The position numbers and the translations under genes are program-made. This document shows positions 9,613 to 19,683 of a DNA stretch of 19,683 nt, piece by piece (position 1 is the stretch's first letter; every line of letters starts with the position of its first letter). A model generated the notes under the pieces. The model saw nothing but the letters and a program-made list of their open reading frames with translations, made no database searches and had not been told where the DNA came from. The stretch comes from Bacteroidales bacterium (GTDB taxonomy: Bacteria > Bacteroidota > Bacteroidia > Bacteroidales > Dysgonomonadaceae): positions 1 through 19,683 of the forward strand of contig JAAZLV010000237.1 of the NCBI GenBank assembly GCA_012799155.1, given 5' to 3'.

Positions 9613-9685
<73 letters not shown>

Positions 9686-9694
9686 CATTTTTTT

Positions 9695-13824: not shown

Positions 13825-13920
13825 GAAGAGGAGTCACTCTCCTCATCCGAAATCGATGACTGCGAAAAAAAATAAAAAAAAATCATTTATTTTTTGGAGG
13901 AGTGAAAAAGAATTCATTCC

Positions 13921-13948
13921 TTTGCTTTCGAAACAGAAGCTAATTCTG
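13921..13948 (+). promoter_or_regulatory. Possible promoter of the leader-peptide/uptake operon
   Basis: TTTG at 13921-13924 and TAATTCTG at 13941-13948 (7 of 8 effective consensus positions if one T-to-C is allowed) lie 16 bases apart, shorter than the ideal 19. A second candidate, TA plus a T-run ending TTTG, is at 13888-13896. The rest of 13825-13975 is A/T-rich with one hairpin and no gene. Confidence 0.3.
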
Positions 13949-13975: not shown

Positions 13976-14089
13976 ATGAGCAATAAACATCAGAATGGCA
14001 CAGCAATAGCCGGCAGATTAAATATGATCTGTTGTTGCTGTATGGAGATGTCTGTCTGCATCACTCCTCGTTGTGCCGTAAAGGAATAG
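13976..14089 (+). CDS. Leader peptide 1, Cys/Met-rich (37 codons)
   Basis: ATG at 13976 opens a 37-codon frame. Its first 16 residues are ordinary (MSNKHQNGTAIAGRLN), followed by a dense sulfur-amino-acid block MICCCCMEM and then SVCITPRC. Nine of the 17 residues 17-33 are Cys or Met, including four consecutive Cys codons at 14030-14041. It has no signal peptide and no recognised domain. The stop lies 22 bases before a strong intrinsic terminator. It resembles leader peptide 2 in layout and motif (CCCM-x-M, then C, then RC-x-V). I infer a regulatory leader whose translation reports Cys/Met supply; a small metal-binding or modified peptide is the alternative. I do not know a named family. A longer frame from 13856 is A/T-rich and unlikely to be used. 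Confidence 0.65.
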   Translation: MSNKHQNGTAIAGRLNMICCCCMEMSVCITPRCAVKE

Positions 14090-14111
14090 CATATATATAA
14101 AAAATATTTTG

Positions 14112-14153
14112 AAAGCTCTCCCGGGACAACCAACCCAGGGAGAGCTTTTTTTT
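14112..14153 (+). terminator. Intrinsic terminator after leader peptide 1
   Basis: An 11-base-pair stem (AAAGCTCTCCC at 14112-14122 with GGGAGAGCTTT at 14138-14148) has a GGG/CCC extension inside the loop and leads into eight T residues (14146-14153). This is a strong Rho-independent terminator placed before the second leader ORF. Confidence 0.88.
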
Positions 14154-14190
14154 AGGTTATTACACATTCAATCATTTATTCTTTACAACT

Positions 14191-14307
14191 ATGAAACGTA
14201 ATTCAATTCTATCCAACATCAATTGTTGTGCTTCATGTCAAATGATGACCTGTTGTTGCATGGCTATGTGCATGCAAAAGAGGTGCAATGTATCAGGAAT
14301 GGGGTAA
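14191..14307 (+). CDS. Leader peptide 2, Cys/Met-rich (38 codons)
   Basis: ATG at 14191 opens a 38-codon frame: MKRNSILSNI, then NCCASCQMMTCCCMAMCM, then QKRCNVSGMG. It has 8 Cys in total, and 13 of the 21 residues 12-32 are Cys or Met. Three consecutive Cys codons lie at 14251-14259 and a further pair at 14224-14229. The stop is 25 bases before a second intrinsic terminator and 86 bases before the binding-protein gene. Shared spacing and motif with leader peptide 1 suggest a duplicated module. No signal peptide, lipobox or known domain is evident, and no modification enzyme is encoded nearby within the window. I infer a Cys/Met-codon leader; real translation is unproven. Confidence 0.65.
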   Translation: MKRNSILSNINCCASCQMMTCCCMAMCMQKRCNVSGMG

Positions 14308-14332
14308 CAGAACTACAGCGACAACAAGTTAG

Positions 14333-14367
14333 AACTCCACCGGTACAGCACCGGTGGAGTTTTTTTT
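14333..14367 (+). terminator. Intrinsic terminator after leader peptide 2
   Basis: A perfect 12-base-pair stem (AACTCCACCGGT at 14333-14344 with ACCGGTGGAGTT at 14350-14361, 5-base loop) leads into eight T residues (14360-14367). It lies only 26 bases before the ATG of the first uptake gene, so it must be read through, or be followed by processing, for that gene to be expressed. Confidence 0.92.
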
Positions 14368-14393: not shown

Positions 14394-15323
14394 ATGAAAA
14401 AAATCAGATTTATCCAGCTTACAATAGCATTGCTTGTGATAACTGCAAGTGCTTTCGGTCAAAATAATCATAAAAAGAGTATTCATATCAGCAGTGCCAG
14501 ATTCGCGACATCACTGGTTGAGAAATGGATCACAGAGTTCAACAAAAAGAATCCGGAATTTGATGTCATCTTATCCACCAACTCCTCAGACAGTGCAGTC
14601 GACCTGCAGTTCATCGGCCCACCTTCAACAGGCACAAGTGAGTTATCGGATGTGATAGTGACCTATACAGGGCGGTATGTCCTTCTTCCCATTACTAACG
14701 AAGAGAATCCCCTCTTACAAGAACTGAACAAAAAAAGATTAAACAGCAAGAGGTTGAAGGAGTTATTCTTCCTGGACGATCCGTTGGGTGACTTTACAAA
14801 TACTTCAAAGAAAACGGATGAAAAGGCAACAATCTATTCGGGAAATCAATCAAGTTCATTTGCCAACCTGTTTGCGCTGCATTTCGGATACACCACAGCA
14901 GACATAAAAGGTAAGAAGATAGCAGGTGATGACATCTACCTGAACAATGCGATACTGAAAGACCTGACAAGTGCCACCTTTAACCACCTCAATTACATTT
15001 TTGACATTGAGACACGGAAGCTGAAGGATGGACTGGCACTGTTGCCCCTTGATATAAAAAAAGGGCAACATGAGATCTTGAAAACAGCCGATATCGACCA
15101 AACGATTGCCCTGCTGGAAGAAGAGAGCATCCCCCTGATACCGGTGGGTAATATGGGATTTGCATTCCGGAAAGAACAGACTGAAGCAAAGGAATTTCTT
15201 TATTGGGTGCTGACTGAAGGTCAACGATACAACCATGCGTATGGATTTCTCAAAACCGAAGCCGATCACCTGGCGGAGCAGCTGAGAGCCATCGAAGATC
15301 CACGTTACGCGTCATCCAACTGA
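14394..15323 (+). CDS. PstS-like periplasmic substrate-binding protein
   Basis: This 309-residue exported protein has a signal peptide (MKKIRFIQLTIALLVITASAFG, cleavage near residue 22) and no lipobox, so it is probably soluble in the periplasm. The remainder resembles the phosphate/sulfate-type binding proteins (PBP-like domain): an N-terminal IHISSARFATSLVEKWITEFNKK, a central SSSFANLFALHFGYTTADI, and a C-terminal EAKEFLYWVLTEGQRYNHAYGFL, like the end of PstS. Such proteins bind oxyanions or small anionic ligands. No ABC permease is nearby; instead the gene heads a SusC/SusD operon, starting 26 bases after a terminator and ending 20 bases before susC. It contains no Cys and only two Met, including the start. 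The ligand is unknown; a sulfur compound is my inference from composition and leaders. Confidence 0.8.
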   Translation: MKKIRFIQLTIALLVITASAFGQNNHKKSIHISSARFATSLVEKWITEFNKKNPEFDVILSTNSSDSAVDLQFIGPPSTGTSELSDVIVTYTGRYVLLPITNEENPLLQELNKKRLNSKRLKELFFLDDPLGDFTNTSKKTDEKATIYSGNQSSSFANLFALHFGYTTADIKGKKIAGDDIYLNNAILKDLTSATFNHLNYIFDIETRKLKDGLALLPLDIKKGQHEILKTADIDQTIALLEEESIPLIPVGNMGFAFRKEQTEAKEFLYWVLTEGQRYNHAYGFLKTEADHLAEQLRAIEDPRYASSN

Positions 15324-15343: not shown

Positions 15344-18300
15344 ATGAATATTACATCACTTTTATCCAGCGTGGCCACCCCATCTGACAAATTCAAGCAA
15401 ATCACCTTCGCAATGCTGATCCTACTTTCTGTTTCTTTCAGCGGAAAGGGTCAGGAGATCCTGAAGGGAACGGTTGTGGACAGGAACAATGAGCCCCTTC
15501 CCGGTGTCAGCGTTGCAGTTAAATCGACCTCGGAGGGTACGGCAACCGATATCGACGGGCAATACAGCATCACCACGGAGCATCCGCTGCCCCTTTCACT
15601 CACATTTAGCTTCCTGGGATTCAGGACACAGGAGGTTGACGTTTATGAGTTTGGAGAGGAGATTCACGTTGTACTTTCTGAAGAAGCCAACATCCTCGGT
15701 GAGGTTGTGGTAACCGGTGTTGCACAGGGCACTTCGCGGAAGACTTTGCCTTTCGCACTCACAAAGATTGACAATGAGCTGATCAACACCGTACCTGCCA
15801 CCGATGCTTCCACATCATTGCGGGGGAAGGTCGCAGGACTGCGTATCGACCAGTCGGGAGGAAACAGGGGGGCTTCGGTTTACCTGAGAGGTTCCAAATC
15901 GGTATCGGGTGACATTGAGCCACTGATCGTGGTGGATGGTTTTGTTACAGGGCTGCGATTATCAGACATCAATCCCAATGACATCGAATCGATAGAAGTA
16001 GTGAAGGGTGCGGCAGCATCTGCCCTTTATGGCACCCGTGGAGAGGGGGGCATCATACAGGTACTCACCAAGAAAGGACGTAAAGACCGGAAAATCGACA
16101 TTGTGCTTGACAATGAGATTGGATTCACCGATATCCTGCTGTTGCCACCCACATCAAAATATCATCATTTCAAGGTAAATCCTGATGGCTCATTCCTGCT
16201 TGTTGACGGTGCCCGTGTAATTGATTACAAGGAGAACGGTTTTTCTGTGAACCTGCATCCTTATAAAAATTACCATGACAATACGGAGAATATACTCGGA
16301 AGGAATACATATTTCACCAATTCGGCAGCCGTCGCGGTAAACGGAGATAACCACACCGCCTACCTTTCCGTACAAAATCAGTACAAGGGAGGGATATCAG
16401 ATGCAGTGGATGCAGATACCAAACAAACCCTGCTATTTAATCTCGGCCACAAGCTCTCCTCCAAAATCAGCAGTGAGCTCACCCTGCAGTATGCACAAGC
16501 GAACAATCCATCGGAAGCGGTATCCTCGCGATCGGAAGGATTGCTGTATTCAACGTTGTTGGTGGAACCACACATTAACCTGGCTGAAAAAGATGCAGAC
16601 GGAAACTATCTGTTTTTTCCGGAAGGGAGCGAACTACTTGGTCAACAGTGGAACAACCCGCTTTATCGGCTTTCAAATCAGGAATACAGTTACAAGACAG
16701 AAAATCTGCTTTTGGGTGGGAAGCTGAAGTACAAAATCAACAACCACCTGGATGCGGAGGCATCGGCATCACTACAGACAAGCAATTACAATTCAGAGGA
16801 ATATTATCCCATAGGTTATCAGACAATCTCACCCAACCTGAACCTCAACAATGGGAACTACAGCCTTGCCACACAGCAAAACGTCACAAGAAACGGACAG
16901 TTGCAGGTCAACTACAACCGCACCACCGGGAATCTTGTGTGGGGTGTCGCCGCAAAGTATGCCTACGAGTTCTCAAAAACAACAGGTTTCAGTGGTTCAG
17001 GCCGGAACCTTACAGCTCCGGTAAAAAGTCTGGATGTTACGGAACCCAGTACGAGGGTGATCTCCTCGCTTTGGTCACAAACAGTCAATTACGGTTACTT
17101 CCTGAATGCGAAAGCTGCATGGAAAGAGAAACTCTTCATTGACCTGCTGGGCCGTCTCGACCAGAGTTCGAGATTTGGGAAAGAGGTGGGAACAGCATTC
17201 TTCCCACGAATCTCCGCGGGATATCGCATTACCGAGGATCTGAAGTTGGACCCGATCACGGAACTGAAACTTCGGGTTGCTTACGGACAGGCAGGTAGTT
17301 TACCCCCATTTGGTGCAAAAGATAGTAGGGTCGCAATCTCCAGCTCAGGCGGTGTAAGTTACACTCAGAACAACAACACCGATCTGAAACGGGCAATCAC
17401 GGAAGAGACCGAACTGGGGTTTGATGCGATACTGTTTAACCGACTCAATATTCAGTTCAACTATGCATTTTCACACAGCACGAATGATTTCATCTCCGTA
17501 CCGGCATTTGCACCGATCTCAGGCTCTGCAAACGTCTATGACAACCTGGGAGCTGTTAAATCAAACTCGTTTGAGCTGGAGGTGAATGGAGAGATTGTGC
17601 AGCAGAAAAATTTCAGTTGGAGCTCAGGCATCGCATTTAGCCGCATCCGAAGTAGAATCACTTCATTGGGTGATGTTCCCGAATTCACACAGAATGGGTT
17701 TCGAAAGGCGGTGGGGGCAAGCACCTCGGCAATATATGGTTACAGCATCTTTTCCAATTTGTCGCAACTTACTACCAACGAGTCTGGTTTTGTAACCAAT
17801 GCCGGTGATGGTACAAAACGGATCGATGACTATGTAGTGAATGAATTTGGGGTTGTGGTGGAAAAAGCAGCACTGGGGACGGCCAATGAGGCACCTGTAT
17901 TTTATGTGAATCCCTCCACCGGCAATTCGAAGATCATTGGTGAAGCATCACCCGACTTCATGGTTGGTTTTTCCAACACGCTTACATTCGGTTCTTTTAC
18001 CCTATATGGTGTGCTCGACTGGCAACAGGGGGGTGAGAAATTCAATGAAACAGCGCAGTATCTCACCTATGTATACCGTTCTGAGTTTTCCGACTTGTCA
18101 TCGCTTGCAGGCAAACCACTGAATTTCACCACACAGGTTTTCAATGCTTCACAGGTTACCGATTACTGGGTGGAGACCACAACACATGTGGCACTCAGGG
18201 AACTATCACTCTCCTACAGGATACCAACCGACATTGTCGGAGGCAAAAGATGGATTCAAAATGCAAACATCTCACTTATCGGGCGTAACCTTTTCATATG

Positions 18301-18400
18301 GACAAACTTCAAGGGTGTGAACGTCGATGGTATTGCGCGGGATGAATTCAACTATCCATCTTACAGGATTATTTCAGGAAAATTGACACTAACATTTTAA
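15344..18400 (+). CDS. SusC/RagA family TonB-dependent outer-membrane receptor
   Basis: This 1018-residue TonB-dependent transporter is of the SusC type. It has a signal peptide (hydrophobic core FAMLILLSVSF, cleavage near residue 36) and a CarboxypepD_reg-like domain at about 38-120 (LKGTVVDRNNEPLPGVSV, DIDGQYSI, LSLTFSFLGF). The plug follows at about 124-240 (GEVVVTGVAQG, VAGLRIDQSGGNRGASVYLRG, then the plug end SIEVVKGAAASALYGTRG). A 22-strand barrel follows, ending SGKLTLTF with a terminal Phe. It forms the channel for ligand captured by the SusD-like lipoprotein, powered by TonB. It lies 20 bases after the binding-protein gene and 10 bases before susD. By my reading it has no Cys and only three Met, two in the signal region and one in PDFMVGF; this is striking for a protein of this size. 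Substrate unknown. Confidence 0.95.
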   Translation: MNITSLLSSVATPSDKFKQITFAMLILLSVSFSGKGQEILKGTVVDRNNEPLPGVSVAVKSTSEGTATDIDGQYSITTEHPLPLSLTFSFLGFRTQEVDVYEFGEEIHVVLSEEANILGEVVVTGVAQGTSRKTLPFALTKIDNELINTVPATDASTSLRGKVAGLRIDQSGGNRGASVYLRGSKSVSGDIEPLIVVDGFVTGLRLSDINPNDIESIEVVKGAAASALYGTRGEGGIIQVLTKKGRKDRKIDIVLDNEIGFTDILLLPPTSKYHHFKVNPDGSFLLVDGARVIDYKENGFSVNLHPYKNYHDNTENILGRNTYFTNSAAVAVNGDNHTAYLSVQNQYKGGISDAVDADTKQTLLFNLGHKLSSKISSELTLQYAQANNPSEAVSSRSEGLLYSTLLVEPHINLAEKDADGNYLFFPEGSELLGQQWNNPLYRLSNQEYSYKTENLLLGGKLKYKINNHLDAEASASLQTSNYNSEEYYPIGYQTISPNLNLNNGNYSLATQQNVTRNGQLQVNYNRTTGNLVWGVAAKYAYEFSKTTGFSGSGRNLTAPVKSLDVTEPSTRVISSLWSQTVNYGYFLNAKAAWKEKLFIDLLGRLDQSSRFGKEVGTAFFPRISAGYRITEDLKLDPITELKLRVAYGQAGSLPPFGAKDSRVAISSSGGVSYTQNNNTDLKRAITEETELGFDAILFNRLNIQFNYAFSHSTNDFISVPAFAPISGSANVYDNLGAVKSNSFELEVNGEIVQQKNFSWSSGIAFSRIRSRITSLGDVPEFTQNGFRKAVGASTSAIYGYSIFSNLSQLTTNESGFVTNAGDGTKRIDDYVVNEFGVVVEKAALGTANEAPVFYVNPSTGNSKIIGEASPDFMVGFSNTLTFGSFTLYGVLDWQQGGEKFNETAQYLTYVYRSEFSDLSSLAGKPLNFTTQVFNASQVTDYWVETTTHVALRELSLSYRIPTDIVGGKRWIQNANISLIGRNLFIWTNFKGVNVDGIARDEFNYPSYRIISGKLTLTF

Positions 18401-18410
18401 TTGAAAAAGA

Positions 18411-19683
18411 ATGAAAAAGAGTATCTATTATACGGCGTTGTTGATGTTGATCCTTTCTTGTGAATCAATCAGCTTCGACGATCCCTCTACGCTCACTAAC
18501 GAGGAGGCAATCGAAAAAATAAAAAGCATAGGCTATGTGCTTACAACCAGCAGTATACAAACTGCATTCAGGACTACCACTAGCAACGCGGGAGGGTCAC
18601 ATTTCAGTCTTTGGGCTGATCAATCTACGAACACCAATGGAAGTCAGTCATGGTGGGACTTTGCCAATGAACCCCGATTACGACTGAACAACAATGCTGC
18701 CTACAGGGGGAATGCAGCAGTGAGAGAAATTTACGCCAATTTCTATCAGGCCAATCTCGATGCCACAAAGGTGATTGATTACATCGAAAACCAGCAACTC
18801 ACCATCTACGATGATGCGGGAAAAGATCGCACGAAAGATTGTCTTATAGGGGCATACTACGCCAAGGGCGTATCGCAGGGTTATCTGGGTGTCATCTTCG
18901 ACAGGGGCATCATCGTCGACGATGTGTCATTGACCACACGAGCGTTTCCGCATTCCTACAAGGAGCTCATCGAGAACGGCGTAAACCATCTGGATAAAGT
19001 GCTGGAACTTGTTGATGAACATCCTGATTTGAAGTTTGATTTCCTCAGTGGTGTGACAATCACCCGTGCACAGCTGATCAAACTGACAAATTCAATGGCC
19101 GCCCGCATCCTTTCATCGGTAGCACGAGACAAGGTGGAAGCGGCATCATTGGGTGACACCCATTGGAACAGGGTACTGGACTATGCAGCAAACGGATTTA
19201 CCGAGGATTTCATGATACCGTCGGTGTCGGGTGGTTATTACAACGCATTGATCACCGCTCTGGAACGACCCTCCAGCGGAGCCTCCCATGTACCGGTGGA
19301 TATTAAAATACCCTTCCTTGCCGATAAGAACCGTTCAACCCCCACATCCTATCCGGTTGATAACTCAATTATCCTCCCCCCGATTGAAACGGATGACAAC
19401 CGATTCTATGAATATTTCACCTATACTACAAATTTCGGCATCTTGCTGGAAGCAAGAGGGAGGGGTTTGTTCAGTAATTACATGCGATCCCGCTGGATGC
19501 ATCCCGAACGGTCCACATTGGATGTGGAAGGAGCCATCAACCCCTACTTCATTTCTGAGGAGTTGCGCTTGTTGCGCGCAGAAGCAAAATTCTGGCTGGA
19601 AGATTATCCTGCAGCAGCTGCAGAAATGAATGCGGCAGACGCAGCCCGTAAAACAAAGGGAGAGCTACCCGATGTGGCAGCCA
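18411..19683 (+). CDS. SusD/RagB family outer-membrane lipoprotein (partial, C-terminus outside window)
   Basis: The reading frame opens at ATG 18411, 10 bases after susC, and remains open to the window end (424 codons seen; the family is usually about 500-550). The N-terminus MKKSIYYTALLMLILSC is a lipoprotein signal with Cys17 as lipid anchor. Helical TPR-like segments follow, as in SusD: YANFYQANLDATKVIDYI, then YYAKGVSQGYLGVIFDRG, and the typical C-terminal helix EELRLLRAEAKFWLEDYPAA. It sits on the outer face of the SusC channel and captures ligand. Its Met/Cys content (7 Met, 2 Cys so far) is less extreme than in the two upstream proteins. Because the gene is cut, the end of the operon is not visible. 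Confidence 0.9.
   Translation, partial: MKKSIYYTALLMLILSCESISFDDPSTLTNEEAIEKIKSIGYVLTTSSIQTAFRTTTSNAGGSHFSLWADQSTNTNGSQSWWDFANEPRLRLNNNAAYRGNAAVREIYANFYQANLDATKVIDYIENQQLTIYDDAGKDRTKDCLIGAYYAKGVSQGYLGVIFDRGIIVDDVSLTTRAFPHSYKELIENGVNHLDKVLELVDEHPDLKFDFLSGVTITRAQLIKLTNSMAARILSSVARDKVEAASLGDTHWNRVLDYAANGFTEDFMIPSVSGGYYNALITALERPSSGASHVPVDIKIPFLADKNRSTPTSYPVDNSIILPPIETDDNRFYEYFTYTTNFGILLEARGRGLFSNYMRSRWMHPERSTLDVEGAINPYFISEELRLLRAEAKFWLEDYPAAAAEMNAADAARKTKGELPDVAA

Follow-up and report, generated by a model that had tools for sequence, protein, structure and literature searches.

The leader of an uptake operon in a Proteiniphilum-like bacterium most likely carries two ribosome-mediated transcription attenuators of the trp/his kind, each with Cys and Met as regulatory codons, placed in series before genes of the SBP-SusC-SusD type (SBP, periplasmic-binding-protein-like). 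An earlier note had proposed such a serial two-stage attenuator before this operon, and the proposal is now backed by an antiterminator overlapping each leader stop codon, by conservation in relatives and by modules outside the training set of a covariance model (R1), two of which precede a Cys/Met-metabolism gene. The window, i.e. the whole stretch of DNA analysed (19,683 nt), is an entire contig of a 2.1-Mb draft assembly that is 85% complete, and the operon closes it. Between the DMP19-like gene upstream and the SBP gene lie 569 nt, inside which the promoter candidate and both modules are located. The features are as follows.

13893..13924, + strand: candidate Bacteroidota-type promoter (-33 TTTG at 13893-13896; -7 box TTCCTTTG at 13917-13924)
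13976..14089, + strand: leader ORF 1 (uORF1), MSNKHQNGTAIAGRLNMICCCCMEMSVCITPRCAVKE, 37 codons and TAG
14024..14059, + strand: Cys/Met block of ORF 1, proposed stall region (from translation, shuffles and geometry)
14070..14090, + strand: antiterminator 5' strand 1, overlapping the end and stop codon of ORF 1 (duplex -16.9 kcal/mol, 7/1000 shuffles as good)
14112..14153, + strand: intrinsic terminator 1 (arms 14112-14125/14134-14148, T8 14146-14153, dG -23.2)
14191..14307, + strand: leader ORF 2 (uORF2), MKRNSILSNINCCASCQMMTCCCMAMCMQKRCNVSGMG, 38 codons and TAA
14224..14286, + strand: Cys/Met block of ORF 2, proposed stall region (from translation, shuffles and geometry)
14289..14305, + strand: antiterminator 5' strand 2, overlapping the end and stop codon of ORF 2 (duplex -15.0 kcal/mol, 27/1000 shuffles as good)
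14331..14367, + strand: intrinsic terminator 2 (arms 14331-14344/14350-14363, T8 14360-14367, dG -22.5)
14394..15323, + strand: controlled gene 1, SBP with a PstS-like fold (AlphaFold model)
15344..18400, + strand: controlled gene 2, SusC/RagA TonB-linked outer membrane protein (TIGR04056, E 1e-147)
18411..19682, + strand: controlled gene 3, SusD-position protein, cut by the contig end (assigned by position only)

TAnnTTTG is the -7 promoter consensus of Bacteroidota. The -7 box of the candidate has one mismatch to this consensus, and L081 and L082 carry TATCTTTG at the equivalent place. These sequences are consistent with a promoter at 13893..13924, a stretch for which a sigma-70 scan of the window reported nothing. 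The SBP matched no Pfam family above cut-off; its AlphaFold model (pLDDT 70.5) has phosphate-binding proteins as top PDB matches at a TM of about 0.5, and the fold search suggests a broad phosphate-binding-protein fold while pointing to no ligand. Gene 3, which has no family match in Pfam or NCBIfam, was named from its position in comparison with ORFs 3' of SusC in relatives. The sole Rfam match at gathering score in the window is a tRNA with a CAT anticodon (9613-9686, + strand).

Both ORFs, with 37 and 38 codons, are present as the earlier note had reported them, and a recount agrees with its Cys/Met density in the dense blocks (9 of 17 residues in ORF 1, 13 of 21 in ORF 2); the 10-mer common to both modules, CTGTTGTTGC, was likewise found, at 14029 and 14250. 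An equally dense block occurred in none of 200 dinucleotide shuffles of the 560-nt leader. The frame of uORF1 is open further 5', with another ATG in the same frame 77 codons ahead of the stop; since this ATG lies 5' of the inferred promoter, 13976 is the likely start, about 45 nt downstream of the inferred transcription start site (TSS). In the window the dense blocks end 33-39 nt 5' of the stop codons, with just an isolated Cys codon nearer. For comparison we used a set of 14 modules from nine genomes (the window, L079-L085 and L089), which lie upstream of orthologous SBP/SusC genes. In all 14 the last codon of the dense block stands 30-39 nt ahead of the stop.

Each ORF is followed by a strong terminator with eight T residues, as the note had claimed, 22 nt (module 1) and 23 nt (module 2) past the stop codons. 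The terminator helix covaries strongly, its covariation score being reached by 0/500 shuffles in alignments of both 14 and 19 modules. A generic terminator scan of the whole window gave 17 sites with 18.3 expected, i.e. no excess; it ranks terminator 2 first and misses terminator 1, which has a mismatch in the stem. Folding of module 2 gave a z of -2.0, with 7/200 shuffles as good. Module 1 folds strongly (z = -5.3, 0/200 shuffles as good), as might a protein-free RNA sensor, be it a riboswitch or T-box-like, that controls the terminators while the ORFs are incidental. We regard such a sensor as barely credible, since no Rfam family reaches the gathering score in the region (a weak His_leader match, E 0.059, stays below the cut-off) and the Cys/Met content is kept even where the RNA design differs. 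A T-box or SAM riboswitch was also tried as a candidate and rejected; the respective Rfam covariance models are not matched in the region.

Ribosome-mediated attenuation requires a competing structure, and in both window modules the final ~20 nt of the ORF can pair with the 5' arm and loop of the terminator. This duplex is predicted in 14/14 modules (-11.3 to -22.1 kcal/mol), and in 11 of them its strength is matched by at most 27/1000 shuffles. The weaker cases are L079_M1 (51/1000), L089_M1 (107/1000) and L081 (265/1000), the last two being no or little better than chance. The best 33-nt pairing partner sits at the stop codon in 10/14 modules. A nine-pair antiterminator helix is formed in 90.5% of alignment cells for 14 modules and in 91.2% for 19, and in 26-48% when the helix is slid by 1-3 columns. 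The number of doubly changed pairs is three for 14 modules and four for 19. Column shuffles support covariation of this helix only weakly: with 14 rows the covariation score was reached by 151/500 and the pairing by 72/500, with 19 rows by 36/500 and 14/500, respectively. They are less decisive here because the strand is well conserved. For the same reason, strands swapped in from other modules often give equally good duplexes.

The GTATCGG-like strand is read in one frame in 13/19 modules and in another in 6/19, so it appears to be kept as RNA and not as peptide. This bears on the alternative that the ORFs are genes for small Cys-rich proteins with a function of their own, or that the hairpins make short 5'-derived RNAs, and that the terminators just dampen transcription. 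Strong terminators by themselves would indeed dampen expression, and leaders from different loci are to some extent alike at the N terminus (FIQYN-like); with the antiterminator strand in two frames, however, the two module types end in different peptides, and leader length varies from 19 to 43 codons among the 14 modules, which makes this alternative very improbable. Leader peptides 1 and 2 had no match in Pfam or NCBIfam.

Taken as attenuators, the modules would operate as follows. When charged Cys- and Met-tRNA are plentiful, the leading ribosome would reach the stop codon and cover the antiterminator strand, whereupon the terminator hairpin would form and transcription would end. If Cys- (or Met-) tRNA is scarce, the ribosome would stall in the Cys/Met block and leave the end of the ORF free to pair with the emerging terminator 5' arm and loop, and RNA polymerase would read on. 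Very probably, the operon is transcribed only when a ribosome stalls for Cys or Met. Since the polymerase must pass both modules, the gates would multiply repression in the replete state and a steeper response is expected.

Occlusion folds, in which the ribosome edge is placed 16 nt away from the first base in the P site, agree with this scheme in 14/14 modules: while the 3' arm has yet to emerge, a ribosome in the Cys/Met block leaves 8-16 expected antiterminator pairs, and one at the stop codon leaves 0. In the predicted folds antiterminator and terminator thus exclude each other, the former being masked by a ribosome that has reached the stop codon. Without a ribosome, 6-16 pairs are expected, again in 14/14 modules, and therefore no clear protective 1:2 hairpin is apparent. 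At equilibrium in the stalled state, once the 3' arm is made, the terminator wins in 13/14 modules (L083_M1 is about evenly split), which means that switching and read-through must be kinetic. The no-ribosome result and the equilibrium result both set limits to the model. We infer translation of the leaders, stalling, the signal and this kinetic read-through from the sequences.

Conservation was followed through genus and family. The SBP or a relative is encoded in 27/101 family genomes, the weakest five matches being 23-26% identical. Among the 11 same-genus genomes with an SBP gene, six have two modules, in five distinct sequences (the window, L002, L003, L004, L006 and L013), and four have one (L005, L007, L008 and L009, the last identical to L085); in the eleventh, L016, the upstream sequence is too short to judge. 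The relatives include Proteiniphilum acetatigenes DSM 18083 (L079) and Fermentimonas sp. (L085). The expectation that homologous loci share the ORFs and terminators is thus borne out in ten same-genus genomes, but the double arrangement is not universal, four of them having a single module. The motif CCC-x-MxMCM gave one match each in 8/101 family genomes, all of them at most 370 nt upstream of an SBP gene, and its reversed-pattern control gave 0 matches in the 101 genomes.

We built the covariance model R1 on the 14 modules and searched 39 genus genomes, then 101 family genomes. Beyond the training loci it matched L204 (G051) and L205 (G088), which lie 54-55 nt upstream of a PF01053-type gene that is closest to methionine gamma-lyase, below the cut-off of that model. 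Other SusC genes are preceded by two modules in tandem in G054 (L203) and by one module in G088 (L202). One module was found in a different genus (G040), where a masked stretch separates it from a SusC gene 0.7 kb downstream; beyond this module, the terminator design was found in the genus of the window only. The antiterminator duplexes of the first five new modules (L202-L205) are matched by 15 to 50/1000 shuffles, and that of G040 is no better than chance (178/1000 mononucleotide shuffles). In L204 and L205 the Cys codons extend into the antiterminator itself, so that the clean spacing fails there. Two further matches, L206 and L208, carry Cys/Met ORFs close to contig ends, the terminator of L208 not being seen. 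The weak matches L207 and L209-L214 were rejected; none has a dense Cys/Met ORF, and they resemble ordinary terminators or chance matches. This tally leaves out the weak matches G052:C1, G083:C95 and G076:C144 as well as reverse-strand matches over the modules' own terminators. The occurrence of modules before SBP, other SusC and PF01053 genes suggests a small regulon. An (I/F)(Q/H)YN-like N-terminal stretch is common to the leaders of L079, L080, L202, L203, L204, L205 and L206; this likeness across unrelated loci suggests that modules were duplicated or that the start of the ORF is under selection.

For two modules, those before PF01053 genes, the regulated gene itself matches the regulatory amino acids, and for the SBP operon a match is suggested by the neighbourhood only. 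With neighbour clusters typed by one representative each, sulfur amino-acid gene clusters (PF01053, CysK/CBS, PatB, CysE) lie at most 4 kb from 20/80 SBP loci (best 80 of 380), PF01053 being near 13 of these 20. A genome encodes about two strong PF01053 members (range 0 to 5), hence roughly 1% of loci would have one nearby by chance. The sulfur genes are mostly upstream on the opposite strand and therefore not co-transcribed with the SBP gene. Moreover, they occur at 6/29 leader loci and at 14/51 other SBP loci (again the best 80 of 380), i.e. the association goes with the SBP, not with the leader. In G008 the SBP gene is followed by genes for an M14 protein, MetQ, an iron-sulfur protein and a PF01053 enzyme. 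Several relatives have genes for a DUF4369/thioredoxin protein and an M14 carboxypeptidase as the next part of the operon, and after these either an M20 amidohydrolase and an SDF symporter or thrA-apgM-thrC. The operon may import a source of sulfur amino acids, perhaps peptides; the thrA-apgM-thrC genes, which follow it in three genomes, and the resemblance of the SBP model to phosphate-binding proteins count against this reading. A ThiF-family gene cluster is near 14/80 SBP loci (best 80 of 380).

Cys-rich uORFs that sense copper are known from Bordetella. Nascent Cys/Met peptides could likewise bind copper or another soft metal, so that the ribosome would report metal rather than tRNA charging. 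The blocks are dominated by Cys, Met and sometimes His, and a gene with a heavy-metal-associated (HMA) domain is near 6/80 SBP loci, three of them with a leader (best 80 of 380). However, sulfur amino-acid genes are commoner in the neighbourhood, at 20 of the same 80 loci, and modules precede PF01053 Cys/Met enzymes. Furthermore, block sequences vary while their Cys/Met content stays, as expected of codons rather than of a binding motif, and the spacing between block and antiterminator fits a codon stall. We therefore regard metal sensing as improbable and retain attenuation by Cys and Met codons.

The his leader is a classical ribosome-mediated transcription attenuator. With the classical attenuators (trp, his, ilv) the window modules share a short ORF of regulatory codons, an antiterminator over the ORF end, an intrinsic terminator and perhaps a matching amino-acid gene; here, in contrast, Cys and Met codons occur together, two equal modules stand in series, the target is of SusC type and the host belongs to Bacteroidota. 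Actinobacterial poly-Cys leader ORFs are reportedly the subject of a study by Canestrari from 2020, with a leaderless start according to its title. The available part of another report covers trp and ilv attenuators and describes poly-Cys leader ORFs of actinobacterial cys operons without conserved terminator hairpins (Seliverstov 2005, PMC1262725). On that partial account, runs of Cys codons in a leader ORF upstream of sulfur genes are common to both systems, whereas the window modules have explicit terminators and antiterminators and mix Cys with Met. An actinobacterial-type poly-Cys leader, with Cys runs close to its stop codon and no terminator hairpin, was rejected for the window, where the modules have terminators, the block stands off from the stop codon and ORF 1 starts well past the inferred TSS. 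Tandem attenuators as such are already known: in Salmonella mgtCBR, as far as the accessible part of the report goes, two short ORFs sense ATP and proline additively (Lee and Groisman 2012, PMC3641672). That leader also has two short ORFs, but the modules of the window share one codon bias and resemble copies of each other. Within the phylum, excerpts report that leader-peptide attenuation has been proposed for amino-acid operons of Flavobacterium psychrophilum (PMC9723704) and that 5' UTRs of B. thetaiotaomicron contain sORFs (PMC7366714); in these excerpts, neither mentions a Cys/Met leader, a tandem device or a SusC target. Likewise, the string 'bacteroid' is absent from the main text of a broad survey (PMC2965389). 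In the literature covered, which includes few subscription journals, we found no description of a Cys/Met leader before a SusC operon. As far as these partly available sources go, the kind of control, classical attenuation, is known, and the Cys/Met, doubled, SusC-directed form was not found described.

SusC/SusD importers are usually seen as controlled by glycan-sensing regulators and sigma/anti-sigma pairs. If our reading is true, a tRNA-charging attenuator ties a SusC importer to the supply of sulfur amino acids, a control unexpected for an uptake gene of this type, and Cys/Met attenuation would hint at what an unannotated importer family transports. The natural one- and two-module relatives provide a compact case for studying gate number versus steepness.

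Other Cys/Met leaders occur in Bacteroidales. The SBP loci named here belong to the best 80 of 380. Of these best 80, 79 were examined, the window among them, and in 23 a Cys/Met ORF reaches the 1% level; when ORFs overlapping the SBP start are allowed, 31/78 reach a fixed score, 29 leader loci being kept after the candidates at L093 and L150 were taken as chance. In Dysgonomonas, Bacteroides and Prevotella, relatives of the SBP gene are often preceded by a Cys/Met leader built in one of two other ways, both lacking a terminator. The first is that of Dysgonomonas, Bacteroides luti and others, where MRMC-like runs close the ORF at the stop codon or a short way before it, and where no terminator was seen; compared with the available account of the actinobacterial poly-Cys leaders, this type is more like them than the window modules are. 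In the Prevotella type (L138, L139, L142, L144, L145 and L151), an MKRMCNMRM-like ORF overlaps the SBP start in another frame, which suggests translational control. Where Arg precedes Met in the terminator-less leaders, its codon is CGA in 18/19 cases (17 loci of several families, some closely related: L038-L043, L045-L047, L049, L096, L102-L104, L108, L112 and L157), while CGA makes up 10% of 2802 Arg codons in neighbouring genes. CGAATG(TG) at the leader ends looks like a conserved RNA element. Near the stop codon these leaders contain 25% C and 10-12% G, compared with 18% C and 14% G further upstream (26 loci, including five duplicates and L150), a composition that would perhaps suit Rho-dependent, tnaC-like control.

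The Dysgonomonas-type pattern CGAATGTSNATGNNNTGY had 21 matches in 19/101 family genomes, with 7 matches of the reversed control; 7/21 stand before an SBP gene, and the other 14 are without such a leader. Pattern ATGCGAATGTGYTGY had 13 matches in 11/392 genomes of the order, with 5 control matches; 4/13 precede SBP relatives confirmed by tblastn and 1/13 a SusC, while 8/13 were left unassigned. The Prevotella-type pattern CGAATGTGYNNNATGCGAATG was found in 0/392 sampled genomes of the order, hence this leader type rests on six loci. In addition, L169 from another Bacteroidales family has a leader ORF ending in MRMCC before a SusC gene (TIGR04056) without SBP, and L164, L170 and L171 have ORFs ending in or containing RMCC distant from any SBP gene.

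It is quite possible, if a little short of probable, that one Cys/Met-codon sensor is coupled to three interchangeable outputs before the same transporter gene, forming a sulfur-amino-acid starvation regulon of SusC-type importers in Bacteroidales. The first output would be the intrinsic-terminator attenuators, single or doubled, of Proteiniphilum-like genera. The second would use a Cys/Met run at the stop codon and C-rich, G-poor, terminator-less RNA (Dysgonomonas, Bacteroides and others), and the third a leader overlapping the start codon, perhaps for translational control (Prevotella); the latter two would have the CGA-AUG codon pair in common.

A palindrome, ATACCA-N6-TGGTAT with at most one mismatch, lies upstream in 54/79 SBP loci (best 80 of 380) and is absent upstream of the window SBP. 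It often stands 40 or about 62 nt before the TAnnTTTG box; examples are L084 (-299), L090 (-448) and L137 (-91). It is probably the operator of a regulator of the SBP gene, and suggests an older DNA-binding regulator.
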